Positions 20,252 through 56,387 of a stretch of DNA of 64,000 nt are shown piece after piece (within the stretch, counting starts at the first letter, position 1; every line of letters begins with the position of its first letter). The stretch is taken from positions 28,524,440-28,588,439 of the forward strand of contig CM042089.1 of NCBI GenBank assembly GCA_023512835.1. Direction: 5' to 3'. This DNA comes from Taxillus chinensis (lineage: Eukaryota; Streptophyta; Magnoliopsida; Santalales; Loranthaceae). Made by a program: the position numbers and the translations under genes. The notes under the pieces were generated by a model, which worked only from the letters and a program-made list of their open reading frames with translations, was not told the origin of the DNA and did no database searches.

Positions 20252-20261
20252 ATTATAAATA
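20252..20261 (-). promoter_or_regulatory. TATA-like box upstream of the Element I added ORF
   Basis: TATTTATAAT on the minus strand is about 120 bp before the ORF start. An ACGT-core site (TGACGTC) lies about 75 bp further upstream (20331-20339). The other two copies have TATA-like boxes at the same distance. Confidence 0.45.
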
Positions 20262-24800: not shown

Positions 24801-25199
24801 ACTGAGTATATGTCCCCATCTCTTGATCCGGATAACTTAGCATCTCCGGATAAGTTTTCCCTTACTGTATAGGTGTTGGACATAAAGGAAACAATGAAAT
24901 CCTTTGTCACATAAATTACGACACTTAGCAAATTATGCTTCAAACCTTCGACTAGTGCAACTCTAGTGATTGATACACGGCCGTTGGTTAAAGTGCCATA
25001 CCCGACGCTCTTTCCTTTCTTTGTTGTCACCATATGAAACAGATGGACCTCGTTTTTCATTAACTTCTACAAGCGAAGTCTGATCACCCGTCATATGTCC
25101 AGGAGCATCCACTATCGAGGATCCACTTGCTTTAATTGATCTTTAACTTCAAGTGATCCGGCGATGCATTACGAGATGCTCCTGAAAGACAACGGTTTA
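21830..25199 (-). pseudogene. Element I pol: protease, integrase, RT, RNase H (broken)
   Basis: Ty1/copia order is seen on the minus strand. The protease WILDSGCS is kept near 25115 but followed by a one-base insertion. Integrase has CRECQLGK, the core VIDDFTRYTW and IRSDHGTEF. RT spans 22770-23290, with a complete YVDDIIFG box. RNase H has YSDTDFAG near 22280; its STAEAEY region is scrambled by frameshifts. Two stops near 22815-22850 (HNF* and a lost Arg codon) split RT. The C-terminus LGMLDFSA ends at 21830, the same as in Element II. Protein would copy and integrate the element; this copy cannot do so. The gag/pol border at 25199 is approximate because the two were probably one polyprotein. 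Confidence 0.9.
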
Positions 25200-27512: not shown

Positions 27513-27555
27513 TGAGAATGAAAGAGTGAGATCTCTATTAGAACTAATAGAACGT

Positions 27556-27567
27556 GCTTTGATACCA
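27556..27567 (-). other. Primer-binding site of Element I
   Basis: Minus strand TGGTATCAAAGC, one mismatch from the initiator tRNA-Met complement TGGTATCAGAGC, two bases inside the 5' LTR. Confidence 0.9.
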
Positions 27568-27569
27568 CT

Positions 27570-28799
27570 TGTTGGTCCCTAGTAGCCTAGAGGGGGGTGA
27601 ATAGGCTAATATTAAAACTCTTTTTCTCTCTCAGGTATAGCACAATCTGGTTATGAGTTGTAAAAACAATGCGGAAGATAACCAGATAGTGGAAGTATTT
27701 TGCTTTATTATCTGATGATAATTACAACAAAATAAGCAGTAATTACAGTTGATTACGATAGCACTCAGTTTTACAGTTACACACACTAGTGTTTATAATC
27801 TCTATGAGCTCTTGTACTACAATCTCTCTAGCTCACGCTTACTTTATAAATATACACAGTTTTGTATTTATAGACATTCCTATGAATCTATCTTGGAACT
27901 GTATATCCCGAGCACTGTGTAACATTAAGTTCTTCTCGGAAAATACTTCTGCTTTAACTACTACGGATGTGGAGTTCGAAATATTGAAAGCATAAGTGTA
28001 ATAAATTACTTTGCTTGATTCTAATTGTATTTGAGACTACGTCCACATCTCTGAGTGTTCCACGTGTAAGACAGTTTAGATCTTCAATGAGTTTGTCTTT
28101 CATCGGGACACAGCGAGCTGACCATTAAATGCGGTTTGGAAAAGGTAAAGCAGCGTCTTCTTAGTCAGTAGTAAGGTTCCTTACTCCGTATCAACGAAGT
28201 TTGGATCCTTACTCCGTGTCAGTACAGTCCTGGAATCCTTATTCCGGGTAAGCGCTTCCTTACTCCGCATAGAGTAGGTACGAAATGCTTACTCCACATT
28301 AGGGATTGGTTCGGATTCCTTACTCCGCGTTAGCTTCCCTTACTCCGCAATAGTTGTCCTTACTCCGCATCAGTGACAGACTCGGATTTCATAGTCCGTG
28401 TCTTTATTTCATTGGTTCGGTGGAGTGACACCTTCGATTCGTTTTCCGTAACAAGTCTCTCTTACTCCGTGCGAGTTGTAGACTCGGAATCTTACTCCGC
28501 ATCACTTGACATGATCTAGTCGAAAGTTAGACGTAGGTTCCTTGGTTGTTTTGTCAAGTGATTACTCTTCACGAAGGATCCTTACTCCGGATGATACCTT
28601 GGTTATGTACCAAGTGAATGACGACACTCACGATGATCCAGATTAGGATTATGTATCCTATCCTTAGCTTTGTCCTTATGAGAGTAGGTCCGAATTAAAG
28701 TTTTATCTTCTGCAAAGACTAAGAATAAACATGGAACATCTAAAATCAAATTACATGGGATTTGATCCACATCATCCAAATTCTGGGTTTGATCTAACA
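27570..28799 (-). repeat. 5' LTR of Element I
   Basis: Ends TGTTGG and TCTAACA (one transition in the terminus). It aligns without gaps to the 3' LTR. It holds the promoter for the element and about ten CTTACTCCG-type boxes between 28180 and 28590. Confidence 0.95.
27864..27872 (-). promoter_or_regulatory. TATA box of the Element I 5' LTR
   Basis: TATAAATAC on the minus strand. Transcription toward gag would start near 27835, leaving a leader of about 320 bp before the lost gag start. The 3' LTR has the identical box. Confidence 0.6.
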
Positions 28800-29804
28800 C
28801 ATCATATGATTTTTAATTCACCCTCACTCATAGATCTTAAGTTGGCAAAATTCATATAGACTTAATTCATTTTTGCTACCATTTTTTGTATGAAGGCCTA
28901 GCTTTGTTGACCAATTGAAATTATATGTTTATCATCTATTATATGCAATGAATTCTACAAGTTTAATTTTTCATCTATCTCGCATGTACTTGTTTCTCTC
29001 TATCATTATTCTCATGCATTTGTTCTATTGATAATTTGTTAATCCGGATACTGCTGCATTTAATCATATGATTTCATTCCTATCCGTTCTAACACCACCC
29101 TATTAAGCTTTTTTCTCTATTAGTTTACTTTTACAAAGTAATAGGTTCAGATTCACTTTGCACTTCAACATGTTATCTCTGTTCGATGTCTCAGATTTGA
29201 GGTATGGTGGTTCCTCTTATTCCTTGCCTTCCAATTAGCAAATGAATCATTGTCTCTCTTATTTTAAGCATTAGTGCATATTTTTATCACACGGAACAAG
29301 TCAGTCAATCATCCCGATCATAATTGATACAGATTTTCTCTAATCCAGATGATGGTCGGTATTCTCCTTACTGACTCTTGGATTTACACAATATTCAAGA
29401 ATCGCGATCACCCAAGCGCTATCTTACATCGCATATTTTTGAGGAGTTGTCATCACGGTTCATTAATAGCTTCTCGACACGAGCACATAGTCATTTTAAA
29501 TTCCGACTTTGGCATACAACTGTCATCACTGCTTGGTCCATCTACTTCCATGTCACCTCATTTCAACATTATCTAGAGGCTTCTTGAGATCAAGATAAAT
29601 GACGTAATTTGTCAGGAGGCTCATTGTTCATCACGTCATATCCGTCAAAACCCTAAAATGTCCTGGCATCCATGAACTATCTTTATACATGCACCGGGCC
29701 TTCAGTGTCAAGACCTATTGATCTTACAAAGCCCAAAATTCTAGTCGCCCTTAAATCCCTCAATAACCCTCAACTTCCTAGCCCTCGATCTCCTTCTCCC
29801 TTCA
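28800..29804 (+). other. Element III post-pol spacer, right piece
   Basis: Starts with the second CATCA and continues the spacer interrupted at 16046. It aligns loosely with the Element I spacer (for example AAGTTGG and GTTGACCAAT motifs). No gene other than the promoter-like region before the added ORF. Confidence 0.65.
29682..29689 (+). promoter_or_regulatory. TATA-like box upstream of the Element III added ORF
   Basis: TTTATACA about 120 bp before the ATG at 29805. A CACGTCAT ACGT-core site lies at about 29632-29639. Confidence 0.4.
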
Positions 29805-31983
29805 ATGGCACCCAAAGCCCTCTATGGCATCACTCCTAGTCATGTCGTCGATTGGAACACAATCTCCGATCCCCCAATCTGGTTCTCTGAGTTGCGGTCT
29901 CTTTTGGAAGTTAACCACATTCTTCATCTAGTCTCAAACTGGGTGGAACTCCTTCTAAATGATATTGTTGAGTATTACCGGAACTTTTGCCGCACCTCTG
30001 ACTTCATTAAATCCACCAGAAAGCGCTCACATCTAGAAGGCGCTCACATCCGGCCTGATCCCAACATGATGGCTATGTTGATGGGATATCAAAATAAAGT
30101 GAAAGAACACAAGTTGAAGGGTTTTCATGGCCAATACCGCTGTATGGCCACCATTCTTAGCCGCTGTCTACTTGCTCCGTATAATATGACATACTTTTAT
30201 CTATGTACGACGTCTTTGAGCACAAGCTGATGGACTAGGGGTTGATCCTATTCCGGATCATGGGCAACAACCCGAGGAACATGTCTTTTGGGCGGATACT
30301 CACTTTGGTGTTTTGGCACCTAAATTTGATACTCTTCTCGGACCATTATGTTGTTACCTTCTCTCATATTTACTATCTTCGTTATCTTCTTTCCGATGAC
30401 ACTTTTGTGGTTCGATGGGTATCTACTACTGGCCATACCGTGCTTGCACCTGAGCAACAAGGTAGCTCGATGGGTGACCAGGCTGACAGTTGTGTCCATG
30501 AGGTTAGCTCGACTCACCGGTCATCTCACATCAACTCAATAGCTGCCCCCTCTATTTCTTGAGGATCGAAGCATAGTATTCCCACCGCTCTTCCCTCTCA
30601 ACCTTTTGATGTTGCTGCCCCATCTTGCCCGGATTCTCCTTCGACCGCTTAATCAGCCCCATCGGATAATGATGCTCCTTTTGTTTCTGCAACTCCTCCA
30701 TAGACCCTATAGCCCTGCCAACCAATCCTCAGGAGGGGCTGAACTGCTTAACTCCTGATGTTCTTACTGACTTGTGTCTCCACTTCAGTCTTGCTTATAC
30801 TGCCATCGTCCCTGGAAATAATCTCTGGGTGTACTACACTCAACAACATCAAGACCCGGCTGATATGATAATATGGAACTTGGAACACAACTTTCTCACG
30901 CTGTCTCAACTGTTTCCTTCCCCTCAGCCCACTACTACTGCTCCCAGATTGATTCAAGACACACGAAGTTTTATCCCTATCGAGGTCAAACCCTCTTTTC
31001 CCGTTGCTGTCCCTATCGTTGATCTCTCTGTTCACAATGGGTCGGACGCTCCTGCTGATGATATGCCTCGCTCTCCTCTGTTGACTCTTTTGTCCATCGC
31101 ATTCCTGCCACCTCTCTTCCTTCGAGAATCCCTATTCTCAAGCGCAGCTGCTACTAGCTCTTTTAGTGCTGCCCCATCCACTAGCTATCTCCTTTCTCCC
31201 ATTATATGCGAAATTTGATCCTGCTGATGAAGATGGGAGAGTACTCAATGCAATAAAAGCATATGCCTACTCCTCTGACGAGCGAAGATGTTTGAATGAA
31301 ATATTTCCCATCTCACTTGAAGATATAGGCACTATTTTTTCTGAGAAGGGACTATATACCAATGAAGATATTGACAACTTTGCCTTGGCTCTTAAATCCG
31401 AAGTCAGGCTGTTTCTTGCTAAATTCAAAGAGGCTGCCCTTTATGACATTCTGCCGTGCTGGACTGAGGACTATGTTCTAGAGGTTGGCTTCATTCGAAC
31501 CTTTATAAACGGAACTGCATACACCAAACAACAAACCATGGAAAAATCTTAAATCTGTTCTCATTCCGTATAGGGTTAATTCTCCGCACTTCATGCTGGT
31601 GGTGTTCATCATTAGAACCAAAAAAGTTATCTTTCTAGACTGCCACCAAATTATAGAGCACAATGTGAGGCTTTATCAGTCGGAACCCTTGTTGATAAAT
31701 CTATCTTTAGCATTAAAAGAAAGCAAGTTTTTCAAATCGATTAATCAGCTTCCCATTAACCCCTAATACGAAGCTGTCTATAGTGGTCCATGACAAGGAC
31801 ATGGTGCCTCAACAACCTGATGGAGAAAGCCGCGGTGTATTTGTTTGTTACTTATTGCAGTCTCTCTTCAAAAATAATCCCGGCAAGAACAACACAATAA
31901 ATTACAGTGTGGAGCAGATGATGGACCTGAGAGAGCATCAAGAAACAATGATTTTCAAATACAGTAAGCCATTTGTTCCATAA
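29805..31983 (+). pseudogene. Added ORF of Element III: C48-like SUMO protease relative, broken
   Basis: Start MAPKALYGITPSHVVDW, stop after KYSKPFVP, 148 bp before the 3' LTR. The N-terminal block with CMATILSRCLLA is present, then a stop near 30230 and a frame change. The linker is shorter than in the other copies but keeps VPIVDLS, the SUMO-interaction-like motif. The C-terminal domain retains DIDNFALALKSEVRLF, His in SPHFM and Asp in FLDCH (reached by frameshift near 31545). The VPQQPDGESRGVFVC box has Arg in place of the catalytic Cys, so even a repaired protein would be inactive as a cysteine protease. This is the most decayed of the three copies. Confidence 0.8.
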
Positions 31984-32131: not shown

Positions 32132-34908
32132 TATTGGATCAAACCCAAAATTTGGAAGATGTAGATGAAACTTTATGTAGTTTGATTTGAGATATCTCGT
32201 TTCTCTATCTCTAACATGTCATAAAAGATAATCTTAAACGTCAAACTCAAATTCACTCTTGAGCGATATGTTAATGTTGGATCAAGCTCAGAATTTGGAT
32301 GATGCGGACAAAATCCTATGTAATTTGATTTGAGACATTACATGTTTATTCTTAAGTTATTACAGAAGATATGATCTTAATCCAAACATTCACTCGTGAG
32401 AGCAAAGCTGAGGACAGTATACATAATCCTGATCTGGACAAACGTGAGTGTCGTCAAACACTTGGTAAATAACCAAGTCTACACTTCATACGGAATAAGG
32501 ATCATTCGTGCGGACTAAACACTTAAAGCAACGTACTAAGGAATCTACGTCTAACGCCTTAATGGGCTAAGTCAAATAAATGTGGAATAAGAATCCTAGT
32601 CAACATCTAGCACGGAGTAAGAGACAGTTATCGCGGAATAAAAAGCTAAGTCTTCCACTCTAGCGGACTAAGGATAAGAAGACACAGAGTAAGGAATCCA
32701 AATCTTCCATACATGCGGAGTAAGGAACGACTTGTGCGGAATAAGGACCCAAGTCCTTTATTCGCACGTAATAAAAAGAATAGATGCGGAGTAAGGAATC
32801 CGAACCTTTTACTCATGCAGAGTAAGGATGCACTGATACGGAGTAAGCCATCCGGCCTTTCAACTCATGCGGAGTAAGGAAGCGTTGATACGGAGTAAGC
32901 TCTCTGGAGGTCTCATTCATACGGAGTAAGGAAACGTTGACACGAAATAAAGATTTCAGTATAAAACTGACATGGAGTAAGCAACCACTGACACAGAATA
33001 AGGATCTGAGCTTCATTAACATAGAGTAAGGAATTTTACGATGGATTAAGAAGACGCTACTTCAACTTATCATCTTCGCATTCAAAGTCGTCAGCTCCCT
33101 GCGTCCCGATGTAAGGCAAACTCGTTGATATCCTAAAGCATCTTACACGTAGATCCTGCAGATATGTGGACATAACTTTTACTCCACTTGGGAACTCGCA
33201 AAGACAGTTATGTTTTAAAGACCCAAGATCTTGAGCTCCTCATCCGCAGCAATTAAGGCAAAGAGATTTCCGAGGAACAGTCAATGCTGCACGTTGCTCG
33301 AAAGAACAAGTACCAGAGATGTTTTTGTTGGATGGATATATATATTAACACTTGTATATTTTTATGGAATGTGAAGCTTGTATGCATGCGTGCAAGGTGA
33401 AACAGAGAAAAATATATGTGCGTGTATGTACAAGAGCTCATAGAGATAATAGTTGGCTAGTGTGTGAGTAACTGTAAACAAAGTGTAAGAGATTTGTTCA
33501 GTATATCAAAAATCTTATAAGCTTTAATCTGCTTCTATATTTTGTTGTAATTATCCTTTGATAAAAAAATAAAATACTTCCACTATCTGGTTATCTTCCG
33601 CATTGTTTCTATCTTTTAACCAAATAAGTGTTGTGCCAGAGACGAGCAAAGAGTTTTCGATTAGAGTCTATTCACCCCCCCCCCCCCTAGGCTCTCAGGG
33701 ACCAACAGTTAAGAACATGATACATAATCCTGAAATAGATCATCGTGAGTGTTGAAATATAGCTCAGCAAATAACCAAAATTTCAGAAGGCACAAAGTAA
33801 GGACATGAAGACACTGAATAATAATCTGAGTCTTCCAATCATACAGACTAAGGACATGAAGACACGGAATGAGGATCTGAGTTTTCTAATCACACGGAGT
33901 AAGGACATGAAGACACTGAATAAGGATCCGAATCTTCCAATCGCACAGAGTAAGGATGTGAAGACACGGAATAAGAATCTGAGTCTTCCATCGCATCGAG
34001 TAAGGAAGTAAAGATGCGAAATAAGGATCCGAGTCTTCCACTCGTGCGGAGTAAGGAATGATGATATAAAGTAAGGATCTGAGTGTTCAAATGAGATGGA
34101 GTAAGGAACGTTGATACGGAATAAGGGATCCGAGTACTTAATTGACACGGAGTAAGGAACCTTGATACAGAATAAGGGATTTGAGTACTTAATTGACACG
34201 GACTAAGGAACCTTGATACGGAATAAGCATCTGAGCCTTCTAATAGCTCAGAATCACTCTCCATACTCCAGAATAAGAAGATATTATTCCAATTACTTTC
34301 TAAGTCAAATTAGCAAATTAACACTCAAACAACTCACTGCATCCCGATGTAAGATAAAATTCGTTAAAGACATTTATATCATCTTACACATAGATCACTT
34401 GGATACATGGACTAAACCTTTAATGGAATTGGAACTATGCAAAGCAAATTTAATACGCTCATGCTTTCAATATCTCGAGTCCCTCTTTCACGGCATTTAA
34501 AGGAGAGATACTTTCTAAGGAGAAGATCCTCAATGCAATTCATCACCCGGGAAGAGCTAGTTTAAGTTCCAAGAAGTCTATCCAAGGGATGTATATATAT
34601 ATATATAGTCATTGATACTTGTAAAGAGTGTGTGTTTTAGAATTTTAATTATTTGTGTTAGAGTGTGAGTGCTACTGTATATAGACAGAGACACTTCTTT
34701 AGTAGATAAAAAGCTTGTGCAAACAGCTTTGTCTGCTTTTCATTTTGTTGTACTTATCATATTGATAATAAAACAAAATACTTTCACTATATCTGATGGT
34801 CTTCCGTATTGATTTTATCTTTCAATCAATATTAGTGTTGTGCCAAGTAGAAGAGAAAAAAATTTCAAAGAGCCTATTCACCCTCCTCTAGGCTCTCAGG
34901 GGCCAACA
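32132..34908 (+). repeat. 3' LTR of Element III, split by a solo LTR
   Basis: Two pieces, 32132-32274 and 33708-34908, join in register across GTTAA to form one LTR of about 1.34 kb ending GGGGCCAACA. Microrepeats at 33780-34230 match the family type but are diverged. Confidence 0.85.
32275..33707 (+). mobile_element. Solo LTR of the copia family inside another LTR (LTR E)
   Basis: Ends TGTTGGATC and GGACCAACA with a perfect 5-bp target duplication GTTAA (32270-32274 and 33708-33712). A 13-base C run (33675-33687) is the complement of the G run expanded in LTR B. Its insertion postdates Element III. Confidence 0.95.
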
Positions 34909-38785: not shown

Positions 38786-38788
<3 letters not shown>

Positions 38789-41784: not shown

Positions 41785-42757
41785 ATTCCTTGGTAATCTC
41801 TCTACCTTAGTAATGCGTTCAGCACTAACTATTCCTTGGTAATCTCTCTGCCTTGACTGCTGTGGTTTGTGGAGCTCAAGATCTTGGGTTTGAAGAGTAT
41901 AAGTGCCTTTGTGAGTTCCCAAATATAATTGAGGTTGTGTCCACATATCCGGGTGATCCACGTGTAAGATTCTTCAGGTTCTCAACAAGTTTGTCTTACA
42001 TCGGGACACCACGAGCTGATAACTTTAAATGCGGTAGTTTGAAGTAGCATCTTCTTGGTCCGGTGTAATTTTTCCTTACTCCGTTGCTAATGAAGCTCGG
42101 AACCTTACTCTGTGTCAGTGGTTGCTTACTCCGTATCTATTAGGTACTGGAATCCTTAGTCCATGTCAGTGCTTCCTTATTCCGCATGTTAGTTCCTTAC
42201 TCCGTATGTAAGTTCCTTACTCCGTATGTAAGTTCCTTACTCCGTATGAGTGAGTGGCCCGGATTCCTTACTCCGCATCTAATTTCCTTACTCCGTGCGA
42301 ATAAAGACTCGGGTCCTTATTCCGCATCAATACTTCCTTACTCCGTATGTATAAAAGACTCGGATCCCTTACTCCGTGTCTTCTTTAGTTCGCTTGAGGG
42401 GAAGACTTAACCTTTTACTTCGTGCGACCTTGTAGACCAAGACTCTTACTCCGCATCAGTTTGACTTCCGTTTGAGGCATTAGGAACATATTCCATAATT
42501 CGTAGCTTTTAAGTTCTTAGTCCGCACGAATGTTCCTTATTCCGTATGTATTGGTGACTTGGTTATTTACCAAGTGTTTGACGACACTCACTCTTGTCCG
42601 GATCAGGATTATGTATCCAGTCCTTAGCTTTGCTCTCACGAGTGTATCTCCGGATTAATAACATATCTTCTGCAACAATCAAAGAAACACAAAAGATCTC
42701 AGATCAAATTACATAAGGCTTTATCAGCATTATCCAAATTTTGGGCTTGATCCAACA
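41785..42757 (-). repeat. 3' LTR of Element II, truncated
   Basis: Sense start TGTTGGATC at 42757. Homology to the 5' LTR begins at about 41812 (AATGCGTTCAG). The 27 bp before that repeat ATTCCTTGGTAATCTCTCT, a word found 40 bp further inside the LTR, so they look like templated filler at a repaired break. Confidence 0.88.
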
Positions 42758-42770
42758 ATCTCCCCTAATT
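42758..42770 (-). other. Polypurine tract of Element II
   Basis: Minus strand AATTAGGGGAGAT abuts TGTTGGATC. Confidence 0.85.
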
Positions 42771-42900
42771 ATGGATATGCCCAAACCCTTTGTAATCTGA
42801 TCTGGTAAGCAGTGCAAAAAGATAACATATAGAATATACATCACAACCAATTTCATTCATCAGCAACAGAATACAATTCAGCCTTTATACAAGATTTTCA

Positions 42901-45629
42901 TTAAGGTACATAAGGCTTACTATACTTAAGGATCATAGTTGTTGCTTTCTCTCTAAGCTTCATTGTCTGCTTCATCGTATAAGTGGTGTGTTAGCTCCAA
43001 AATTTGTCCACAGTTAAGAATGACTTGATGAAGTAACAGACAAAGGCCTCGCAGCTATCTTCATCCGGCTGTTGTGGCACTTGCTTCTTGCCCCGGAATG
43101 TCGCCTTCAGCTTCTCAGTTGGACTCAAGGGTGTGATGCCCAACTCTTTATATAATCCAGCTTTCTTCACAACTTCAGTCAGCCTGAGACATAGTGGTTC
43201 CCATTGATTCTTTCTTAGATAATGCTCCACAATATGATGAGAATCAATCAGAATCATTTGTTTGGACTGAATCATGAAGACAGCCATCATGAAATGTGGC
43301 GACATGATCCGGTACGGAATGAGGATAGTTGAGAGAGTTTTCCATGGCTTGCTATCCTCAGCAGTTCCGTCGATGAAGGACTGAATGAGATCTACACTGG
43401 GAAGATAGCCTTCATTCCAAAGACGGCGAACTTCAAACAAGTGCCCATCCTTGTATAGAGATGGAAACAGCCTCATCTCCATTTTAGCATCCCTAGAGAA
43501 GTTGTCAATGTCTTCTGTTGTAAAGAGTCCTTTTTCCGAACAAAGGATCCGAATGTCGTCTGGGGGAAAAAGGGTACAGGTCAGAGAGACATCTTCTCTC
43601 GGCAGAAGACACAGCATAGGACTTCATTGCCTTACGCACGCTTCCATCCGCATTAGAAGGGTCACACGCCGCGTATGATGGGAGGAAGGTGTCAGCTGCG
43701 GATGGAGAGGATGGAGGAAGAGCTGCACTCGAGGAGCTTGGGCCGAGAGAAGCGGCTACGTTTGGGAATTTGGACTCCCTGAAGCAATGAAGAGGCAGGC
43801 CGCTTCTCAGCACGAGTGGATGGTTGAGGTGCAGGAGGAACAGAAGGATCAGATGACACTTTCTCCTCCGGTTTGGCAGATCGCCGGGAAGCAACGGGAG
43901 GGCGAGCCATCGTGTGCGCTAGGTCCGCGAATGAGGTAGACAAGGAATGGACGGACGAGGCAACGAGATCCATCTTCTGTTCCATGGAAGTGGAGGAATC
44001 AGTGAGAGCAAAGAGGAGTTGGGCGCCAAGTGCATCAACCTTGGCGGCGATGGCGGATATTTGGGCGCTATGAGCTTGAGCGTGGCGGTCCAGCTGGGTG
44101 GAGAGCATAGCGTCGAAGTGGACCGTGCCAAAAGAAGCACGCCCAATGACCAACTCGGGAGCTTTGGAAGACTCCTCCGCATGAACAGGAGCAGGAGTGC
44201 GCTGGGCAGAGGAGTCCGCAGGAGTATCAGCAGCAGCAGCAAAAGGGGCATCCGGAGGATCAGAGGCATCCGGAGCAGCAGACCCGCTTTGACCAGAGAG
44301 GTCAATAACGGGAATGGCGGTAGCAGGAGAAGAAGGTCCAGCCTTAGTAGGGGAAGAACTCCGTGCGGCATGGACCGGGCTGGAAGGTGTAGGGAACGGC
44401 ACATCTGGAATGGAGGCCGGCGTAAGAAAGCCTTGGTCCAAGTTCCAGATGATCATGGTCTCCGGGGATTGGGTATGGCGCGTGTAAAACACCCGGAGAT
44501 CGGTGTCAGGAATGGAGGCAGTGTGGGCAAGGCTGAAACGGAGCCATAGGTCCGTTAAGGTGTCGGTGGAGAGATGGTCAAGGTAATCTCGAGGTTGAGG
44601 TAGGGGAGGCAAAGGGGCTTCTGGAGTAGATGCCAGGACATCAGCAATGACGGCAGCAACAGCGGTATCAACCGCGGCAGCAATGGTGGAAGTGGAGGGT
44701 GTGGGGACATCCGCAGCAGAAGGGGCTGAGGAAACAGGTTTAGGAACGCTGCACTGAGAGGGCCCCGCAACCTCGGAAGGGTCACCACGGACGCTGTGCT
44801 GGGAAGCCCGAGAAACGGAGGGTGCAGCAACAAACCGAATCCGGGAGGACCGGTGAGCAGAGTTGACCTCTGGGTCATGGCTGGCAGAGGGGTCACCAAC
44901 AGAACTGCCTTGTTGTTCCACGGCAGGGAGAGGGCGGAGAGCTGCAGAGGGACGACGGGCTGTCATGTTCCCATCAGGCGTCAGATAGCGAAGGTAATAG
45001 GCCGGAGGGAATGAAACAGCATCATAGCGGGCGAAATGGTCCGGATGAAGATGCTGGAAGACAATGCTGAGTATGCGCCTGAAAGAACGGTTCTTGGGTC
45101 CAGTCTGCAGTAATCGGAACAAAAATGTCCCCCAGTCCATGGGAAGACCTTCGAAAACGACGTACATGGCCAGAAGAAGGTCGTACGGAACGGAGTCCAG
45201 GGCGGATGTGCGAGCCAGTAAACATCGACTCAAGATGGTCGCCATACAGCGATAGCAACCTTGGAAGGACTTCACCTTGTATTCCTTGCCTTTGTAGGTG
45301 CAACCCATAGAAGCTGCCATGGGATCGGCATCGGGGCGCTGTGGTTCACCGGGGGGTAGATGGAGAGCAGTGCGGAGAACGGCGGGGTTAATGAGGATGG
45401 ATTCACCGCGAACATAGGAAATGATGGAGTCGGTGGTACAACGAATCCGTTGGTAAAACTCAAGAATGTCATCTATAAGAAGATCGACAGGATTGGAGAT
45501 CAAGTTGAGTATATGCGAGGCTTCTAGTAGAGGGCGAAGATGGAAAAACCAGTCCGGCGGGTTGGAGACAGCACTCCAATCGACCAGATGGCCAGGATTA
45601 ACGCCGGAAAGAGAGATTCTGGGTGCCAT
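42901..45629 (-). pseudogene. Added ORF of Element II: C48-like SUMO protease, nearly intact
   Basis: The first 645 codons from the ATG at 45629 are open. N-terminal domain: residues 1-225, no recognised family, with CMATILSRCLLAR at 128-140 and PMDWGTFLFRLL at 163-174. Ser/Pro/Ala linker: 226-560, with VIDLS at 441-445 (SUMO-interaction-like) followed by Asp residues. Coiled-coil-like stretch: about 505-570. Basic cluster: EKRP then PKRSRF near 610-630, a bipartite nuclear signal by pattern. Frameshifts near 43745 and 43570 lead to the protease domain with His (SPHFM), Asp (ILIDSH) and Gln-Cys (VPQQPDEDSCEAFVC). The Gly after Cys is Glu here, probably harmful. A stop near 42990 removes the last 29 codons; the family stop is at 42901. 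It lies 1.7 kb after pol and 143 bp before the LTR. No signal peptide or membrane segment is seen, so it is not an envelope protein. Confidence 0.85.
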
Positions 45630-45743
45630 TGTAGATGAAGGTTAAAGGTCGAGAGGAAAGGTGAGGTCTTGGGGATTGAAGGAGCAACGAGAGGTTTAGG
45701 GATTTGAAATGAGCAATACTCGTGCTTCGCAGGAATGACCTGA

Positions 45744-45751
45744 ATATATAA
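45744..45751 (-). promoter_or_regulatory. TATA-like box upstream of the Element II added ORF
   Basis: TTATATAT on the minus strand, about 118 bp before the ATG at 45629. Confidence 0.45.
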
Positions 45752-47326
45752 GACCGAGTCCGTGAATGTCAGCGGGTCTAGGAAGTTGGCGAGTGAAACA
45801 GTGAACCGCTTGACAAGCTGATGTCATTAGTCTTGATATCGGTGCGCCTCCGAATGAAACGATGTCGTGGAGACAGCATGACCAAGTAAAGATAACAGCT
45901 GTGTGCCTTCCAGGGGAAGTTTGTGCATTCCGAGACATGCATGTTATAAATCATCATGATTCCTCCTCAAAAGTACGTGATAGATAATAAGACATGGAAT
46001 ATCGCAATTTGACAGAGCCAGGATTTCGGAGGAATGAACCGATAATCATCCGGAGTTAACGATAGTCATGTGACGAGTATCCGGATGAAAAGTAGACCGT
46101 TTCCGTAGTAACAAAGTGTGGTGAGAGAGAAGTAGATTCCTTTGCTTGTCAATAAGTCGAAGAGAAGAAAAGTACCACAACACTTCAAATCCAAGACTAT
46201 GGACTAGATTTACCGATAAGGTTGCAAAGAAAATCTGAACCTGTAGCTTAAAACAAGATAAACTAAAAATACAAAAGCTTAACAGGTAAGGATTAGTACG
46301 GATAAGAGAAAATAGTATGTGAAGAACGACATAATCCGAACTAATGAGAAACAGAACTTATGCATGACAAAGAATGTAATAGACATATACATACGAGAGA
46401 ATGATCATATTACTGAATCAGGACATATGTCAGATAAAAATACACAAGTTCATATAGGTCAACATAGCGAACCGTCCTGCTGAATGACGTAGCTAAGATT
46501 AATTAAAAATCATATGATTTGATCAAACTAGGATTCATGAGTGAAAAAATGAGGAAGCGGACACATGTCAAATGCAAGCAATTGATTATCCGATTAAAAT
46601 GCATGGTTGAAGAAAAGAAAAAACATCCAGGCATGCCTCAATTCCGTTTCTACAACGCATGTCCAGTCAGATCCGGAAGTAAAAGTTTAGAGGAGTGAGT
46701 ATCCGAGACATATTAGGGAGTCATTACTGAGGTAATAGATGAAGCTTAAGCTCCCCCGTAGATCATTCGATCCTCTCAATGATAGACTCCCCCTCAAATA
46801 AACAGCCAGGAAACAGGTCATGAGACATATACGGGGGGTATTACTTGAATAATGTATAAAGCATTTTCTCCCCCGTAGATTGTGCAATCCTCTCGGGTGA
46901 CCTTTCCGTCATATAGAAATTCAAAGACTGTCTATCTTTTTGGGAAACTATACTTGAAGCTGATCGATCGCGATTGAGTATTCATCCACTAGGCATTCCA
47001 AGCTAACCCATTTCATTTCTTCAATTATACATGTTAATAGAGTAATCTAAATAAACAGGCTTTCGTCATGTGGTGATCAGTGGAAATTAAGATCATGAAA
47101 CCAGAATGAGGTTAATCATATAAACTTTAATCATGTTTGCTTAAACGACTTCAGTCGGGAAACGCAAGCATCCTCCCATTATGCAGTTGATAATAATATT
47201 AGAAGCATGAAGCCGTTAATCAGTAAGTATGATCAGCATTAAAAATAGTATGTATCGTCTACTTCCACTAAAAGCACAATGCATGTTCTGATAGTAAGTA
47301 TACTGTTGAGTAATTTAAATGTGAAA
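45752..47326 (-). other. Post-pol spacer of Element II
   Basis: No convincing ORF. Polypurine-like boxes at 46745-46895 repeat the GAGGATC...GATCTA...GGGGGAG arrangement of Element I. The spacer is similar to that of Element I over most of its length. Confidence 0.7.
46745..46895 (-). repeat. Iterated polypurine-like boxes, Element II
   Basis: Three purine runs (minus strand ACGGGGGAGCTT, TGAGGGGGAGTC and ACGGGGGAGAAA), two of them after a GAGGAT(C/T)...GATCTAC word. Same layout as 21255-21402. Confidence 0.6.
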
Positions 47327-47817
47327 CTATGCAGAGAAGTCAAGCATACCTAATCGGATGAGTAGTTCAGAGAATCTTGCATCAGGTAGGGCCTTTGTAA
47401 GTATGTCTGCCAGTTGATCTTCAGTAGCAACATGTTCTCGGGAAATGTGATTTTTGAGAACATGGTCGCGTATGAAGTGATACCGGACCTCAATATGCTT
47501 CGTCTTAGGGTGCATGACAGGATTGTTGCTGATAGCAATTGCACTAGTGTTGTCGCAGTAGAGTGGAATAGATGACATGTTGAAACCGTAGTCAGTAAGT
47601 TGACTTTGCATCCAGAGTAGCTGTGCGCAGCAACTCCCAACAGCTATATATTCCGCCTCAGCAGTAGAGGTTGATACGGAATTCTGCTTCTTACTGAACC
47701 ATGAAATTAATCTATTTCCAAGAAACTGACACGTACCACTTGTGCTCTTCCTGTCGATGCGACATCCAGCGAAGTCGGCATCAGAGTATCCGGATAAGGT
47801 GAAATTGGACTCCTTTG

Positions 47818-48231
47818 TGTCACGACCCGAGCAGCGTGGTGCTGGCGGGACGTTTCTTAGTGGCACGATTCAGGAATGGATTTGTGCTACGTAAAGGAGA
47901 GGGGTTGGTTGAAGCGTAGATGGTGCGCAGCGAGAAGGTTCTAGGCAGTTCGTGGAGGAGAACGGATGGAACCCCTTCGGAGTTCAGACGTGCCGACCCG
48001 GTTGGATGCGGGGAGCACGCCGCTAGTCGAGGACTTGACGTTGAAGAAGGGATTTGGCCATCCTTACACAAACTGGTCGGGAACTGGAGCCGTTCTCCTG
48101 ATGAGCCCAGTGGCAGGGCGAAACCAGTCTACGTGTGCTTCAACCCTCAAAGGCTAAACTTAGCGGACCGTGGATAGAGAAGCTAAGTGCCGCAAGGGGT
48201 TGAGAGGCGCAGGAAACCTGACCCCGTGACA
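47818..48231 (+). repeat. TRIM LTR 1
   Basis: 414 bp, TGTCACGACC to CCCCGTGACA, with a short 7-bp inverted terminal match TGTCACG/CGTGACA. Confidence 0.93.
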
Positions 48232-48626
48232 AGTGGTATCAGAGCCGAACCGGCCTGTATCCTGAAGACTCGCCGAGCACTCTCGCGAGCAGCATGATCC
48301 CAAGGTGGGAGCTCACAGAGGTGAGTCAACCGATAGTGTCTTGCACGCCTTGCGTCCATAGAGTTGGAGTATCCTAGAGTGTGATACAGAGTTGGGCAAG
48401 GGAGTACGAAGGAGCGCGTCGGAGCGATCTTGGAAGCCTCCTATCCTTTGGACATTGGGCGAGTGGGCGAGCATCTTGGTAAAGGTGTTGCAACCTGCGG
48501 GGAAGCGATGTCCAAGCTGTTGACATTGGGCGAGTGGGAGGGCGTCGAGGTAACGATGCCATCGCCTGCGGGGAAGCGATGTCGACAAGCGCAACGAGGA
48601 CGTTGTGAGGATTGGGTGGAGGAGAA

Positions 48627-49040
48627 TGTCACGACCCAAGCAGCGTGGTGCTGGCGGGACGTTTCTTAGTGGCACGATTCAGGAATGGATTCGTGCTACG
48701 TAAAGGAGAGGGGTTGGTTGAAGCGTAGATGGTGCGCAGCGAGAAGGTTCCAGGCAGTTCGTGGAGGAGAACGGATGGAACCCCTTCGGAGTTCAGACGT
48801 GCCGACCCGGTTGAATGCGGGGAGCACGCCGCTAGTCGAGGACTTGACGTTGAAGAAGGGATTTGGCCATCCTTACACAAACCGGTCGGGAACCTGGAGC
48901 CGTTCTCTGATGAGCCCAGTGGCAGGGCGAAACCAGTCTACGTGTGCTTCAACCCTCAAAGGCTAAACTTAGCAGACCGTGGATAGAGAAGCTAAGTGCC
49001 GCAAGGGGTTGAGAGGCGCAGGAAACCTGACCCCGTGACA
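48627..49040 (+). repeat. TRIM LTR 2 (shared middle LTR)
   Basis: Serves as 3' LTR of the first unit and 5' LTR of the second. Preceded by the purine tract GGGTGGAGGAGAA. Confidence 0.93.
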
Positions 49041-49436
49041 AGTGGTATCAGAGCCGAACCGGCCCGTATCCTGAAGACTCGCCGAGCACTCTCGCGAGCA
49101 GCGTGATCCCAAGGTGGGAGCTCACAGAGGTGAGTCGACCGATAGTGTCTTGCACGCCTTGCGTCCATAGAGTTGGAGTATCCTAGAGTGTGATACAGAG
49201 TTGGGCAAGGGAGTACGAAGGAGCGCGTCGGAGCGATCTTGGAAGCCTCCTATCCTTTGGACATTGGGTGAGTGGGCGAGCATCTTGGTAAAGGTGTTGC
49301 AACCTGTGGGGGAAGCGATGTCCAAGTCGTTGACATTGGGCGAGTGGGAGGGCGTCGAGGTAACGATGCCATCGCCTGCGGGGAAGCGATGTCGACAAGC
49401 GCAACGAGGACGTTGCGAGGATTGGGTGGAGCAGAA

Positions 49437-49850
49437 TGTCACGACCCGAGCAGCGTGGTGCTGGCGGGACGTTTCTTAGTGGCACGATTCAGGAATGGAT
49501 TCGTGCTATGTAAAGGAGAGGGGTTGGTTGAAGCGTAGATGGTGCGCAGCGAGAAGGTTCCAGGCAGTTCGTGGAGGAGAACGGATGGAACCCCTTCGGA
49601 GTTCAGACGTGCCAACCCGGTTGAATGCGGGGAGCACGCCGCTAGTCGAGGACTTGACGTTGAAGAAGGGATTTGGCCATCCTTACACAAACTGGTCGGG
49701 AACTGGAGCCGTTCTCCTGATGAGCCCAGTGGCAGGGCGAAACCAGTCTACGTGCGCTTCAACCCTCAAAGGCTAAACTTAGCGGACCGTGGATAGAGAA
49801 GCTAAGTACCGCAAGGGGTTGAGAGGCGCAGGAAACCTGACCCCGTGACA
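49437..49850 (+). repeat. TRIM LTR 3
   Basis: Ends CCCCGTGACA against TTTG of the host pol gene. Confidence 0.93.
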
Positions 49851-52740
49851 TTTGGGTACCAGTGTCCCAAATTCATCGTTCCCTTGAGATATCTTAACAT
49901 CGTTTAACATGAAGCATATGTGACTCCTTGAGATTCGCCTGATATCGTGCACAGATGCAAGTTGCAAACATAATGTCTGGGCGACTTGCTGTAAGATACA
50001 GAAAGGATCCTATCATCCCTCTGTAGTCAGTCACATTTACTAATATGCCATCACATCAGGATCTAACTTGGCACTGACAGGCATGGGAGTTTTGACGGGA
50101 GATGAACCTTCCATACCAAACTTCTTAATAAGATCGCGAGTGTACTTAGCTTGATTAATGAAGATTCTTCCTTCAATTGTTTAACTTCTATTCCGAGAAA
50201 GTAGGACAGTTCTCCCATCATGCTCATCTCAAACTTGCCTGTCATCAACTTAGCAAACTCTTCACAAAGCTTCGGATTCGTTGATCCGAAAATGATAACA
50301 TCCACGTATATCTGTACGATCAGAGTGTGTCCTTTCTCTTTTCGTAGAAATAAGGTGGTGTCTATCTTCCCTTTTTGGAAGTTGTGAGCAAGTAGGAATT
50401 CTGACAGTGTGTCGTACCAGGCTCTTGGAGCTTGCTTCAAGCCATATAAAGCTTTCCGAAGTTTGTAGACTAGATGTCCTGCTTTAGGTTCAATGAAACC
50501 GGGAGGTTGTTCTATGTAAACCTCCTCTTGAAGATCACCATTCAGGAATGCGCTTTTGATGTCCATTTGATAAACTATGAAGTTTTCATATGAAGCATAC
50601 GCCAGAAACATTCGGATTGCCTCAAGTCTTGCTACTGGAGCAAAGGTCTCATCATAGTCTATTCCTTCTTCTTGACGATATCCTTTGGCTACCAGTCCAG
50701 CTTTGTTCCGGATTACTATTCCATCCGTATCAAGCTTGTTCCAGAACATCCATTTAACTCCAATGACTTGCTGAGACTTAGGCCTTGGTACTAAAGTCCA
50801 CACATTATTTCTCTTAAATTGATTCAGCTCTTCTTGCATGGCTTCTATCCAATTCGAATCCTGAAGAGCTTCATCTGCCACCTTTGGTTCTATTTGAGAT
50901 AGAAAACACGAGTAAAGACTCATGTTGGAGGTGGCTGCTCTTGTTCTTACACCAACAGTAGGATCACCAATCACTTGATCTGAGGGATGGTTTCGGGTCC
51001 ATCTCGTAATTCGTGCATGTGATGGTTGATCGTGAATAATTTGAAGCTCTGCCAGATTAGGTGGTTCACGTATATCTGCTGGTTGAGCTTCTTCCGGACC
51101 ACATGTTTCCATATTAGAAGGTACGGGAGAACTAGATGGTTCTTCAACACTGTTTCTGTCAGTGTTAACTAGTCCGGACGGACTTGAAGGTGCTCCGGAA
51201 TTTTGGGTATCCGTAGGAGTATGTCCGGAGCTAAACGGTAGTCCAGAGTCCAAGTCATCCGTAGCATTGTCCATATCATTTCTTTATGCTCCGCTGGTGC
51301 CGCTTGGTTGGTCAGTATGTATAACAGGAACAGTCATAAACTTTAAATAGTCGATGTTGTTGTCTTGAACCTGTACGTTAGAACTTGAAGAAGCAATTTT
51401 TGACCAATCAAGATTAGTTTCATCAAAGGTCACATGGATAGATTCTTCAACTTTAAAAAGTTTTCTATTGAAGACCCGATAAGCTTTGCTATGTAATGAG
51501 TACCCGACAAAGATCCCATCATCGATTTTTGGTTCAAATTTATTCCGGGGTTCTTTGCCGTTGTTCAATATATAGCATGTACACCCAAAGGCTCTGAAAT
51601 GTGAAATTGAAGGCTTTCGTCCTCTCCACATCTCATAAGGTGTTTTCATGGTAGATTTATTTATTAGAGTTCTATTCTGAACATAGCAGGCAGTGGACAC
51701 AGCTTCAGCCTACAGACTGAGAGGAAGCGTTGCCCCTGCTAACATAAATCTGCCAGCCTCGACTAAAGTACGATTCTTGCGCTCAGCTACCCCATTTTGT
51801 TGCGGAGTTCTAGGCGCAAAGAAGTCATACTGAATGCCCTGTTCTGAATAATATGATCTCATTTCTGAAAATCAAATTCTGTACCATGATCACTCCTGAT
51901 GCACTTTATGCTCAGTCCTTGTGAGTTGCTTATGCAGTTGAAAAGATCTACAAGATGCTCAAAAGTTTGATCCTTTGATTTCAGGAACATCACCCATGTG
52001 TATCTGGTGAAATCATCGATAACCACAAGGGTATATCTCCCACCAGCCGGCGGATTTAACAGAAATAGGACCATAGAGGTCCATATGAAGAAGTTGTAGG
52101 GGAGCAGATTATTGAATTAACCGATTTGCTCTTAAAGCTATGTTTGGTCTGCTTGCCCAGTTGGCATTCTCGACAGAGAGTGTCTCTGGAGAATTTGAGT
52201 TTAGGTAGACCAGTGACAAGATCAAGTGAAGCTAATTTAGACAATGTCTTAAAGTTTAAATGTGCGCATTGCTTGTGCCATAGCCAACTATCTTCATCTA
52301 AAGCTTTAGTGAGGAAGCATACAGGGTCAGAAGAATTATTTCTTAAGACCACTGAGTATATGTCCCCATCTCTTGATCCGGATAACTTAACATCTCCAGA
52401 TAAGTTTTCTCTTACTGTACAGGTGTTGGACATAAAGAAAACAGTAAATCCTTTGTCACATAAATTACTAACACTTAGCAAATTATGCTTTAAACCTTCG
52501 ACTAGTGCAACTCTAGTGATTGATACATAGCCGTTAGTTAAGGTGCCATACCCGATAGTCTTACCTTTGCTGTTGTCACCATATGAAACAGATGGACCTC
52601 GTTTATCATTAACTTCTACAAGCAGAGTCTGATCACCCGTCATATGTCCGGAGCATCCACTATCAAGGATCCACTTGCTTTGATTGATTTGTAACTTCAA
52701 GTGATCCGGCAACGCATTCCAGAGATGCTCCTGAAATATA

Positions 52741-55047
52741 ATAGTTTACACTTTTGGTGCCCAAACTTGTTTCGGGCGGTTAGAGAGAGCAGCAGTAATG
52801 TCAATAGTTACGGATTTGATTTTGCTAAGACTTTTAGCTCTCCAAGTTGATTTTAACTTGTTAGTTTCAGCTGCCTCTTTTATTTGGGTTTTCTTGGGAG
52901 AGATATTCCTTTGAGGTTTAGATTTTGTTTTGCTCGAAGAACCCTTTTTATTTAACTAATCTTTATTGGTATGAATTTGATTACAAAGCCAGTTATCAGA
53001 TAAACTCCAACATTCATAGTGATAATGACCTATTTCCCTACAGATGGAACAGACACTATAATGCGGAGTACAAACAGGGGATACAGGTCTCTTAGATTTT
53101 ACAGACTTTCTACTCTGTTCCCTGTGGCCTAATCCATTGCGTTTGGGTGACGCGCCCTTGGCCCTAGATGCGTTAGCCTTAGCCTTTTCTTTCTTTTTGG
53201 GTGCTACAATTTTGGCTTTAACTGCAGCAGCCTTCCCTTCATCTTTAGTTACGGGTGCTACTACTTTGGGAAGAGCAGTAACAGCCTCAACTCCACAGTC
53301 ATAAACTATGGTGCCACCTGAAATAAAACCATCCAACGGTTTAGATGTACTAACAGGATATAAGTTGGTAAGTTTTTGAGTGAAATCCGGAGGACACTCA
53401 GTAGCTTGAGCTATGGAAGTCGATGGTTCGGAACCTAGGCCAGGTTTGACTCGGATGTTGTCAGGATCAGTCCTAAAGGTAGAGGCTATTTCCCCGGATT
53501 TTAGCCACTTACGATTTATTTCCCTTTCCTGTTCCAGTTCATTTTCGAGTCATTTCACAATAACTTTTAGGCCCGTTAGGTTGGTATTTAACAGATGATT
53601 TTCAGCTCTTAGATCATGATACCAAGCCTCTTTTCCTCTGAAATCAGCTATGTCCTTTTCAAGTCTAGTGATAGTAAATTCAAGGTGTTTATTCTGACTT
53701 TCCACATCTTTGTACATTTGAGTAATTATTTGTCTCTCATTCTTTTCATGATCACGTTCAATAATAAGAGATTCTAATTGACTCATGAGCTCAGAGATAG
53801 AAGGTACCTCAGTATTTGCCATGAGGCAGACATTCGGCTTAGGAGTTGGCTCATCATCCGAGGATTCCTCCTCTTCTTCCGAGCCACTGATGTACTTTGT
53901 CACGAACGCCTTCCTCTTGTTCTTGTTGTTGTCTGAGGTGGAGCGGCGAGGAGTTACCTTGTCACTTTTCTCGGCCACTTTTGATTTGGATCTGCAGTCC
54001 TTGGCCCAATGACCGGTTTTCCCACAGTTGTAGCATTCCTGGGAACTGGACTCCGGTCTCTCCTTCCTTTGGAAAGATGATGATGAGCGTCTCCTGAATC
54101 CTTTTCTGCTTTTCCGTAGGAATCGCTCAAAGGATTTGACGAGAAGAGCTATCTCCTCCTCCTCGTCAGAATCAGAATTCTCGGACACGTCCGTATCATC
54201 ATTCCTCAGTATATTTAAACATTCTGTAGCTTTGAGAGCTACCCCCTTTTCTTTCTGAGTTATTTTCTCATCTCGGTCAGAGTACTTAAACCTGACTTCG
54301 TGAGTCCGCAGCTCTCCATATAGTTCTTCAAGGGGAACATACCGCGCTTTTTGTCCGATTGCATCCTGGAGTTGTTTGTAGTAGTATCGATCCGGCAAGG
54401 AGCGAAAGAACTTGTCATTGATCTGAGATTGAGAATAATGCTCATTGACAGTCTTCAGCTCAAGAATGAGCTTGCCGAATCTCCGATAGATGCTTTCGAG
54501 TGATTCGCCTGGTTTATGATTGAAACTCTCAAAGTTCTGCCTAAGAGTACAGATAATGTTCTGCATCGGGACTGACTCCCCTCATAGAGGATTGTCAGTT
54601 TATCCCAGACAGCTTTTGCTGTTGTGCAGCCCTGGACGTCCGTGAAAGCCTCGGAATCCAAAGACGATGTAACGTAAGCCAGAGCCTTTTCGCTAGCGCA
54701 CCGCCTGCTCTTTCATCATTGGTAAGTTCGGCATCCGTCTTTGGCCTTCTAACTCCATGTTCTCCGATTGTCATCGGAATTGGAATCTCCTGATGAAGAC
54801 AGGGCCACATGAGATGGTCATGGCATACCATGAACATCTTCATGCGAGCTTTCCACAGGGAGAAAAGCTCAGGTGTGAATTTGGGCGGTTTTGTCAGAGT
54901 AAAACCAGAACTCCGTGGTTGAGTAGTGGAGGCAGCAGTAGGTTGAGGTGGGTCGACGTTTTCACTGTTGCTTCGATTCGGGATGGGCTCTTGTGCACCT
55001 CCGAAGTTAAGGCGAGTGTTGAATAGCATACTGCTTTCTTCGGCCAT
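52741..55047 (-). pseudogene. Element II gag, long Sirevirus type (broken)
   Basis: Starts MAEESSMLFNTRLN at 55047, 48 bp inside the primer site. It has KPPKFTPELFSLWKARM, then frameshifts near 54700 and 54570. A 338-codon open stretch follows with IYRRFGKLILELK, a zinc knuckle CYNCGKTGHWAKDC (about 53994-54035), an acidic SEEEEESSD tract and a coiled-coil-like segment (53560-53830). A stop near 53550 interrupts VKRLENELEQ. The Lys/Ala-rich part and second Cys/His cluster CSICREIGHYHYEC (about 53010-53050) follow, and a stop at 52956 that Element I lacks. Gag would form the particle; the coiled coil fits Sirevirus gag. Confidence 0.9.
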
Positions 55048-55094
55048 TGCTGAGAGCGAAAGAGTGGGATCTCTATTTAGAACAAATAGAACTT

Positions 55095-55106
55095 GCTCTG
55101 ATACCA
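55095..55106 (-). other. Primer-binding site of Element II
   Basis: Minus strand TGGTATCAGAGC, a perfect initiator tRNA-Met primer site, two bases inside the LTR. Confidence 0.93.
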
Positions 55107-55108
55107 CT

Positions 55109-56387
55109 TGATGGTCCCTTGGAGCCTAGAGGGGGGTGAATAGGCTCTTATCGAAACTCTTTCTAATCTCTTAAGACACAAACACTTTTCCAGTTAAGTG
55201 ATAGAATCACTGCGGAAGATAACCAGATAGTGGAAGTATTTTGTTTTATTATCAAAAGATAAATACAACAAAATAGAAGCATGACTCTCTTACACTCTGT
55301 TTACAAAGGAATTCACACACTAGCCTAATTCTATCTTTTGAACTCTTGTGCATACACAAGGTTGATCTTAGCTTCCTTGCACTCTTTTACACAAATGTAC
55401 GAGTATGAATATTTATACAAATATTCCTAAGAGACAACCTTGGAACTTGTAGTTCCAGAATGCGTTCAGTACTAACTATTCCTTGGTAATCTCTCTGCCT
55501 TGACTGCTGAGATTTGTGGAGCTCAAGATCTTGGGTTTGAAGAGTATAAGTGCCTTTGTGAGTTCCCAAATATAATTGAGGTTGTGTCCACATATCCGGG
55601 TGATCCACGTGTAAGATTCTTCAGGTTCTCAACGAGTTTGTCTTACATCGGGACACCACGAGCAGATAACTTTAAATGCGGTAGTTTGAAGTAGCATCTT
55701 CTTGGTCCGGTGTAATTTTTCCTTACTCCGTTGCTAATGAAGCTCGGAACCTTACTCCGTGTCAGTGGTTGCTTACTCCGTATCTATTAGGTACTGGAAT
55801 CCTTAGTCCATGTCAGTGCTTCCTTATTCCGCATGTAAGTTCCTTACTCCGTATGTAAGTTCTTTACTCCGTATGAGTGAGTGGCCCGGATTCCTTACTC
55901 CGCATCTAATTTCCTTACTCCGTGCGAATAAAGACTCAGGTCCTTATTCCGCATCAATACTTCCTTACTCCGTATGTATGAAAGACTCGGATCCCTTACT
56001 CCGTGTCTTCTTTAGTTCGCTTGAGGGGAAAACTTAACCTTTTACTTCGTGCGACCTTATAGACCAAGATTCTTACTCCGCATCAGTTTGACTTAGTCTG
56101 TTTGAGGCATTAGGAACAGATTCCGTAATCCATAGCTTTTAAGTTCTTAGTCTGCACGAATGTTCCTTATTCCGTATGTATTGGTGACTTGGTTATTTAC
56201 CAAGTGTTTGACGACACTCACTCTTGTCCGGATCAAGATTATGTATCCTATCCTTAGCTTTGCTCTCACGAGTGTATCTCCGGATTAATAACATATCTTC
56301 TGTAACAATCAAAGAAACACAAAAGATCTCAGATCAAATTACATAAGGCTTTATCAGCATTATCCAAATTCTGGGCTTGATCCAACA
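55109..56387 (-). repeat. 5' LTR of Element II
   Basis: 1,279 bp; sense start TGTTGGATC, end GGACCATCA (one change from CCAACA). TATAAAT on the minus strand at 55411-55417 is the likely TATA box. CTTACTCCG microrepeats fill 55720-56100. It differs from the 3' LTR by scattered mismatches and by one microrepeat unit less (two CCTTACTCCGTATG boxes near 55840 against three near 42200). Confidence 0.93.

Follow-up and report, generated by a model that had tools for sequence, protein, structure and literature searches.

A SUMO-protease-like gene in the 'env-like' position of Sirevirus-like Ty1/copia elements in Taxillus chinensis

Could a long terminal repeat (LTR) retrotransposon carry a SUMO-protease-like gene as a regular part of its body? 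This question is raised by a stretch of the Taxillus chinensis genome (contig CM042089.1, positions 28,524,440 to 28,588,439; 64 kb, 40% GC, no N), hereafter called the window, in which an initial annotation had noticed three copies of such an extra gene in a Sirevirus-like copia family. Copies I (17417..20135, minus strand) and III (42901..45629, minus strand) are carried by Elements I and III, respectively, while copy II lies at 29805..31983 on the plus strand. The description of the gene as a regular part of the family rests on these three loci in one 64-kb window. Our tentative answer, to which we give a chance just short of even from the sequence features, is that a Sirevirus-like Ty1/copia lineage would have long carried this accessory gene in its 'env-like' slot, and that the product would be a nuclear protease of SUMO or a related modifier, guided by the N-terminal part.

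The two open pieces of copy III match three loci, at 45641-42994(-), 20141-17510(-) and 29802-31863(+), and no further copy of the gene was found in the 64-kb window by the same search (tblastn, E up to 1e-3). The domain order is identical in the three copies (tblastn). Copy I shares 44-58% amino acid identity with copy III, depending on the segment, reaching 58% at the N-terminus and 50% within the C-terminal domain; for copy II the identity is 44-49%. The shared start, domain order and end noticed in the initial annotation are borne out, and the ends are even exact, since the copies finish with KYSKLYVP, KYSKPFVP and KYSKPYVP (pattern KYSK.[YF]VP), each followed by a stop. The distances also agree: the ATG lies 1694 bp (Element I) and 1697 bp (Element III) beyond the pol stop, where about 1.7 kb had been given, and the gene ends 140 bp (I), 148 bp (II) and 143 bp (III) before the LTR, as had been stated. 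All three copies lie in sense orientation directly ahead of a 3' LTR. The place between pol and the 3' LTR, claimed for each of them, holds for copies I and III; copy II has linker DNA alongside and no gag or pol match.

The reading frame of copy III starts with the ATG at 45629 and is open to 43695 (645 aa). After a frame change it continues in a second piece (42994-43623, minus strand, 210 aa), which is followed by an in-frame stop at 42991, and the C-terminal motif extends to 42901. The corresponding stop-to-stop frame of 649 residues is the longest among the 125 frames of at least 80 residues listed for the window, and its length was matched by none of 500 dinucleotide shuffles of the copy III region (maximum 298), which rules out a chance open reading frame (ORF). 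All three copies are dead and have decayed here. Copy III has a frame change and a stop near 43.6-43.7 kb besides the stop at 42991, copy I (delimited by tblastn) has stops and frame changes in both halves, and copy II (likewise) is frameshifted, with CGC (Arg) as the codon of the catalytic Cys. None of the three copies in the window is full-length and intact, as the initial annotation had proposed to look for.

What, then, did the gene encode? Its last ~190 residues are Ulp1/C48-like. The piece of copy I at 17420-17872 matches the Peptidase_C48 profile PF02902 with E=3.9e-9 and 37.1 bits, above the curated Pfam cut-off of 20.7 bits, while copy II (piece 31717-31980, E=5.7e-4, 20.2 bits) falls slightly under this cut-off and copy III (14.7 bits) under it as well; one copy of three thus passes. 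The domain of copy III (42994..43569, minus strand) aligns with that of copy I over 192 residues without gaps at 50% amino acid identity. The order and spacing of His, Asp, Gln and Cys, which we take to be the catalytic residues of Ulp1, are complete in copy I (17810-17812, 17759-17761, 17585-17587 and 17567-17569, minus strand) and in copy III (43294-43296, 43243-43245, 43069-43071 and 43051-43053, minus strand), and three of the four are present in copy II, with Arg for Cys. The best sequence match in the PDB is yeast Ulp1, with the four catalytic positions aligned, and Foldseek ranks SENP2, SENP1, SENP5 and Ulp1 first to fourth for the domain. The claim of C48 homology with the His-Asp-Gln-Cys order is therefore upheld, through the profile match of copy I and the four positions kept in copies I and III; the protease homology of the domain holds at the level of sequence, and a protease function is what we infer from it.

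Other searches added no relatives. With the C-terminal piece of copy III, the PDB sequence search gave a single unrelated row (E=0.79). In a protein collection that is perhaps poor in plant proteins, none of 2627 word candidates for the C-terminal part and none of 2805 for the N-terminal part came within the E limits of 0.01 and 0.001, respectively. No NCBIfam family was matched by the four pieces searched, and the ORF region had no match among plasmids.

The pattern of substitutions suggests that purifying selection maintained the gene over a long period until its decay and acted before these insertions. A codon model fitted by maximum likelihood gives an omega (dN/dS) of ~0.17 over 580 codons shared by the three copies, a value that is approximate because synonymous differences are at or near saturation (proportion pS 0.59-0.80 by segment), and that is biased toward the low side, with stop-bearing codons dropped and the alignment taken from protein matches. 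By piece, omega is 0.15 for the first piece (401 codons) and 0.19 for the C-terminal piece (179 codons), and the log likelihood is -5855.8 vs -6022.5 with omega fixed at 1 and kappa at 2. This is far from the dN/dS near 1 that the initial annotation had named as counterevidence, with the qualification that three sequences have no internal branch and omega covers the copies jointly. In the C48 domain, which is gap-free over 192 codons between copies I and III, the differences at the three codon positions are 65, 51 and 112. For gag-pol of Elements I and III, omega is 0.30 by a counting method, with dS of 0.235 over 1599 codons.

The divergence along the two carriers is uneven. Elements I and III are 86-96% identical from the primer-binding site (PBS) through gag and pol, and 70-84% identical in the first ~1 kb past pol. 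At I 20803 / III 46284, ~0.65 kb before the gene, the identity drops abruptly to 56-69% and stays there through the extra gene, and the LTRs of the two elements are 56-76% identical. Synonymous differences follow the same course, with pS of 0.68 in the ORF vs 0.20 in gag-pol. Consequently, the gene and the LTR have diverged far longer than the gag-pol that the elements now have in common, and the abrupt drop rules out one uniformly diverged pair of elements. The simplest reading of these alignments is that either a template switch between RNAs packaged together or a gene conversion of gag-pol joined the ORF-plus-LTR block to a common gag-pol; on this reading the gene predates the split of these LTR lineages. 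The initial annotation had likewise placed the capture of the gene before the spread of the copies, and the far greater divergence of ORF and LTR than of gag-pol agrees with it.

The carriers themselves are Ty1/copia elements, as judged from a copia-type reverse transcriptase (RT) with the pre-integrase region upstream and the RNase H region downstream. Element III (41812..56387, minus strand) has a 5' LTR at 55109-56387 and a truncated 3' LTR at 41812-42757, with 23 differences over 926 columns (Kimura two-parameter distance, K2P, 0.025). Its gag and pol (47330..55125, minus strand) contain, in three pieces matched by Pfam, gag/zinc knuckle, Pol_BBD, gag_pre-integrase and RVT_2 (E=2e-69, with Pol_BBD and gag_pre-integrase upstream), while the integrase and RNase H pieces were placed by position and by homology between Elements I and III. 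Element I (16047..28799, minus strand) has LTRs at 27570-28799 and 16047-17276, which differ at 48 of 1230 columns (K2P 0.040), a 5-bp target duplication (CATCA), and gag-pol homologues at 21833-27539 in the same order. At a substitution rate of 1.3e-8, taken from general knowledge, the LTR divergences correspond to roughly 1.5 (Element I) and 1 (Element III) million years. The RT piece had no match among viral contigs.

Some irregularities of Element III were also observed. Three ~809-bp tandem units (47818-49736, 95-99% alike) separate the RT from the RNase H piece in its pol, and the opening 17 residues of the RNase H piece reappear in the two further units. Its 3' LTR is short by ~350 bp; beyond it, after a 25-bp LTR scrap, lies a 117-bp copy, 99% identical, of the flank outside the 5' LTR (41668-41812 and 56387-56503). 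Perhaps the element was inserted or repaired in a non-canonical way that left a long target duplication rather than one of 5 bp. In addition, a ~1.15-kb direct repeat, 93% identical, flanks the element on both sides (38144-39271 and 59331-60487).

Are these elements Sireviruses? The cis motifs were tested as given in PMC2829016, except that the consensus letters of the poly-C signal were not taken from that source. The junction of the 5' LTR and the PBS in Sireviruses is CA/A[T/G]TGG/TATCAGAGC (PMC2829016). It is exact in Element III, where the core TATCAGAGC stands at 55095..55103 (minus strand) behind CA/AGTGG; in Element I, the nonamer has a single mismatch. The terminal polypurine tract (PPT), AGGGGGAG followed by AT/TG, appears in Element I as TGGGGGAG-AT/TG with one mismatch and is one G short in Element III. 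The score of the inverted repeat flanking the PPT, which is degenerate and not exact, was reached by none of 500 shuffles for Elements I and III and by 19 of 500 for the element of copy II. A poly-C-rich signal, CACCCCC(C)TCTAGGC, is found near the 3' end of four of the six LTR sequences, with longer C runs in the other two. Several identical PPTs clustered near the 3' LTR were not found; the exact octamers, two in the linker of Element I (21257..21300, minus strand) and one in that of Element III (46787-46794), are found close to the pol end, ahead of the ORF. Elements I and III therefore show most of the tested motifs, not all, and we call them Sirevirus-like without placing them as members of Sirevirus. 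To this extent, RVT_2 and the motifs support the Sirevirus-like copia carrier of the initial annotation. With these octamers upstream of the extra gene, the linker looks older than the ORF-LTR block, as though the block had been joined on behind it.

For copy II, the remains of the carrier are found on both sides of Element I. To the left, linker DNA at 15709..16037 (plus strand) is 71% identical to 21424-21164 of Element I, and its part 15726-16037 is 68% identical to 46904-46573 of Element III. To the right, at 28824..29526 (plus strand), the part 28824-29211 is 67% identical to 46544-46174, and 29071-29526 is 67% identical to 20832-20404. Taken in order, the two stretches correspond to consecutive portions of the linkers in Elements I and III. 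Therefore, Element I was inserted in the linker of copy II's element. The 3' LTR of this element (32132..33710, plus strand, end approximate) was recognized by blastn to the other LTRs (~70-79%) and has a C-rich end; its start, beside copy II, is duplicated (32134-32263 and 32277-32400, 72% alike, within 32132-32400). No gag or pol of this element was found with seven gag-pol pieces (tblastn, E up to 1). Outside Elements I and III there are two weak matches to these pieces, both far from copy II, one (E=0.034) near 12.1 kb in a zinc-knuckle-like stretch of 27 residues, and the other (E=0.22) at 61.8 kb. The window holds additional LTRs of this group, whole or partial, at 430-1879, 10228-11605 and 34330-34911 (about 65-79% identity), and no gag-pol piece of Elements I and III was found beside them other than the weak match near 12.1 kb.

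The protein also has an N-terminal part and a linker. The N-terminal part of copy III (44907..45629, minus strand) resembles Transposase_32 (PF20167, E=3.3e-5, residues 42-175), with 24.3 bits, under the Pfam cut-off of 45; judged by this match, it would be a remote relative of Transposase_32 at most, and its predicted structure is uninformative (pLDDT, the predicted local distance difference test, 37.6). In sunflower, the 3' extra ORF of an Athila element has been described as partly similar to Transposase_32, and the PF20167-like region was related to Athila ORF1 (PF03078) (PMC11728184). The linker (43695..44906, minus strand), recognized by composition, is Ser/Ala/Pro-rich and has near its end a motif like a bipartite nuclear localization signal (NLS), which reads KR..IPKR in copy III (residue 609) and RKR..VPKR in copy I. 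The initial annotation had not noted the Transposase_32-like domain at the N-terminus, the mosaic make-up of the elements or the insertion of Element I in copy II's carrier.

How could such a gene have served its element? With homology, position, a complete set of four catalytic residues (copies I and III), purifying selection and the excess divergence of ORF and LTR established, we consider that the gene most likely lies in, or constitutes, the 'env-like' slot as a putative nuclear accessory protein of the deSUMOylase type. The encoded protein of ~850 residues would comprise the Transposase_32-like N-terminal part, the Ser/Ala/Pro-rich linker with the NLS-like motif and a cysteine protease domain of the Ulp1/SENP type. 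It may enter the nucleus, where the N-terminal part would aim it and where it could strip SUMO or a related modifier off proteins of silencing or repair, or off the integration complex of the element itself, and so favour expression or integration. On these sequence features, the odds are about even that the protein did work in the nucleus as an accessory protease of SUMO or a related modifier, with the N-terminal part as its guide. Yeast Ty1 is repressed by the host's Ulp1 at the nuclear pore, and Ty1 RNA increases when Ulp1 is lost (PMC8585004), which indicates, by analogy, that the SUMO state matters to a copia-type element. Two points weigh against our proposal. The effect on Ty1 is opposite in sign to a simple helper role, so a narrower target would be likelier than global deSUMOylation. 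Moreover, the linker of copy III holds one hydrophobic stretch (19-residue mean 1.87), a possible membrane segment.

This stretch is what an ordinary Sirevirus env-like gene might show, and we regard it as unlikely, though well worth weighing, that the extra gene is of this kind, with a C-terminal part derived from C48 and serving without protease activity in a scaffold, coat or movement protein. The slot is identical to that of the env-like genes, which have little common sequence besides transmembrane and coiled-coil domains and are perhaps not true envelopes (MASiVEdb, PMC3414828). The region ahead of the C48 domain of copy I, which might be a coiled coil, weakly matches the viral P10 family (E=0.055), and the catalytic Cys is lost in copy II. 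However, the hydrophobic stretch is Ala-rich with two Asp, and the four catalytic positions are retained in copies I and III despite ~50% identity. If the protease was active, its targets could have been the element's own proteins and not SUMO. Adenovirus and poxvirus proteases of this fold act on their own viral proteins. The domain of copy I weakly matches Peptidase_C5, the adenovirus protease (E=0.078, below the cut-off), and the poxvirus I7L, African swine fever virus pS273R and adenovirus proteases are among the 50 VIA-align rows listed. Yet the nearest sequence and Foldseek matches are Ulp1/SENP, and copia elements generally carry an aspartic protease of their own (no profile match for one was found here), which makes such a role improbable.

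The same C48 domain could also have arrived by another route, either as the ORF of a CACTA- or MULE-type (Mutator-like element) DNA transposon nested by chance or as a recently captured fragment of a host ULP gene. In plant CACTA ORF2, C48 stands behind a transposase-type domain (PMC8978399), and Ulp1 domains occur in MULEs, but the position and end of the gene are identical in three elements, and ORF and LTR alike are far more diverged than gag-pol. No inverted-repeat pair surrounds the ORF in Element III or I, and the sole pair more than 1 kb apart (18167/20598, Element I) cuts across the gene itself and lacks a counterpart in Element III. We consider this origin very improbable, and a recent nested DNA transposon is ruled out for copies I and III by the missing flanking repeats. 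There is a similarly slight chance that one lineage evolved fast in the ORF block, which would explain its low identity without mosaic ancestry. Sirevirus linkers and LTRs are as a rule highly diverse (PMC2829016); but here the synonymous differences rise too, and the drop in identity is abrupt, past ~1 kb of linker still at 70-84%. Our proposal of an old accessory protease gene may be carried further. The origin of the Sirevirus env-like genes has been called unknown (PMC3414828), and at least some of them might be, instead of envelope genes, genes of nuclear Transposase_32/C48 proteins, modular counter-silencing deSUMOylases with an N-terminal part common to copia and gypsy elements, encoded in an ORF-plus-LTR cassette swapped between gag-pol backbones; this wider scheme is decidedly doubtful.

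How does the gene compare with known systems? Like the env-like ORFs of Sireviruses (SIRE1, Maximus and others), it lies between pol and the 3' LTR of elements with most of the tested cis motifs, and the lengths of Elements I and III (12.8 and 14.6 kb) come close to the range of 9-14.4 kb given for Sireviruses with an env-like gene (PMC2829016, Table 2). Unlike them, it has C48-like and Transposase_32-like domains, a distinction drawn from domain content. In published env-bearing elements, 89% (56/63) of the upstream PPTs come after the ORF (PMC2829016), whereas the exact octamers here are all upstream of it (3/3).

Among DNA transposons, the N-terminal family of the KIU ORFs is DUF1985, which had no match in the extra gene at E up to 1 (Pfam). 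An Arabidopsis 'Ulp1 protease family protein (DUF1985)' is listed in PMC5821449. KIU ORFs of VANDAL (Mutator-like) transposons are plant transposable element genes with an Ulp1 domain (PMC13317346), as is the gene described here, but their carrier is a DNA transposon. The same holds for CACTA ORF2, in which Peptidase_C48 also follows a transposase-type domain, although one of a different family, Transposase_24 (PMC8978399). Ginger1 proteins (with Ulp1 or OTU domains) likewise have a C-terminal Ulp1 domain, but there the domain is fused to the transposase itself of an animal DNA transposon (PMC2836005). Among plant LTR elements, the Athila 3' extra ORF shares Transposase_32 (PF20167) and a predicted nuclear location; Athila is Ty3/gypsy, however, and the sections of PMC11728184 drawn on here name no C48 domain for its ORF. 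Orchid Ty3/gypsy elements with an m6A (N6-methyladenosine) RNA demethylase domain have similarly gained an enzyme domain, but the enzyme and the superfamily are different (PMC9289625). Among the matches listed in the open-licence literature, no Sirevirus or other LTR retrotransposon is described with an Ulp1/C48 gene as an extra ORF. A retrotransposon lineage keeping a SUMO-protease-like gene under purifying selection would make the function of 'env-like' ORFs directly testable and would point to SUMO as a common weak point in the silencing of plant transposable elements. C48 domains are thus known from plant Mutator and CACTA and animal Ginger DNA transposons, and what appears to be new is their carriage by a Sirevirus-like LTR element.
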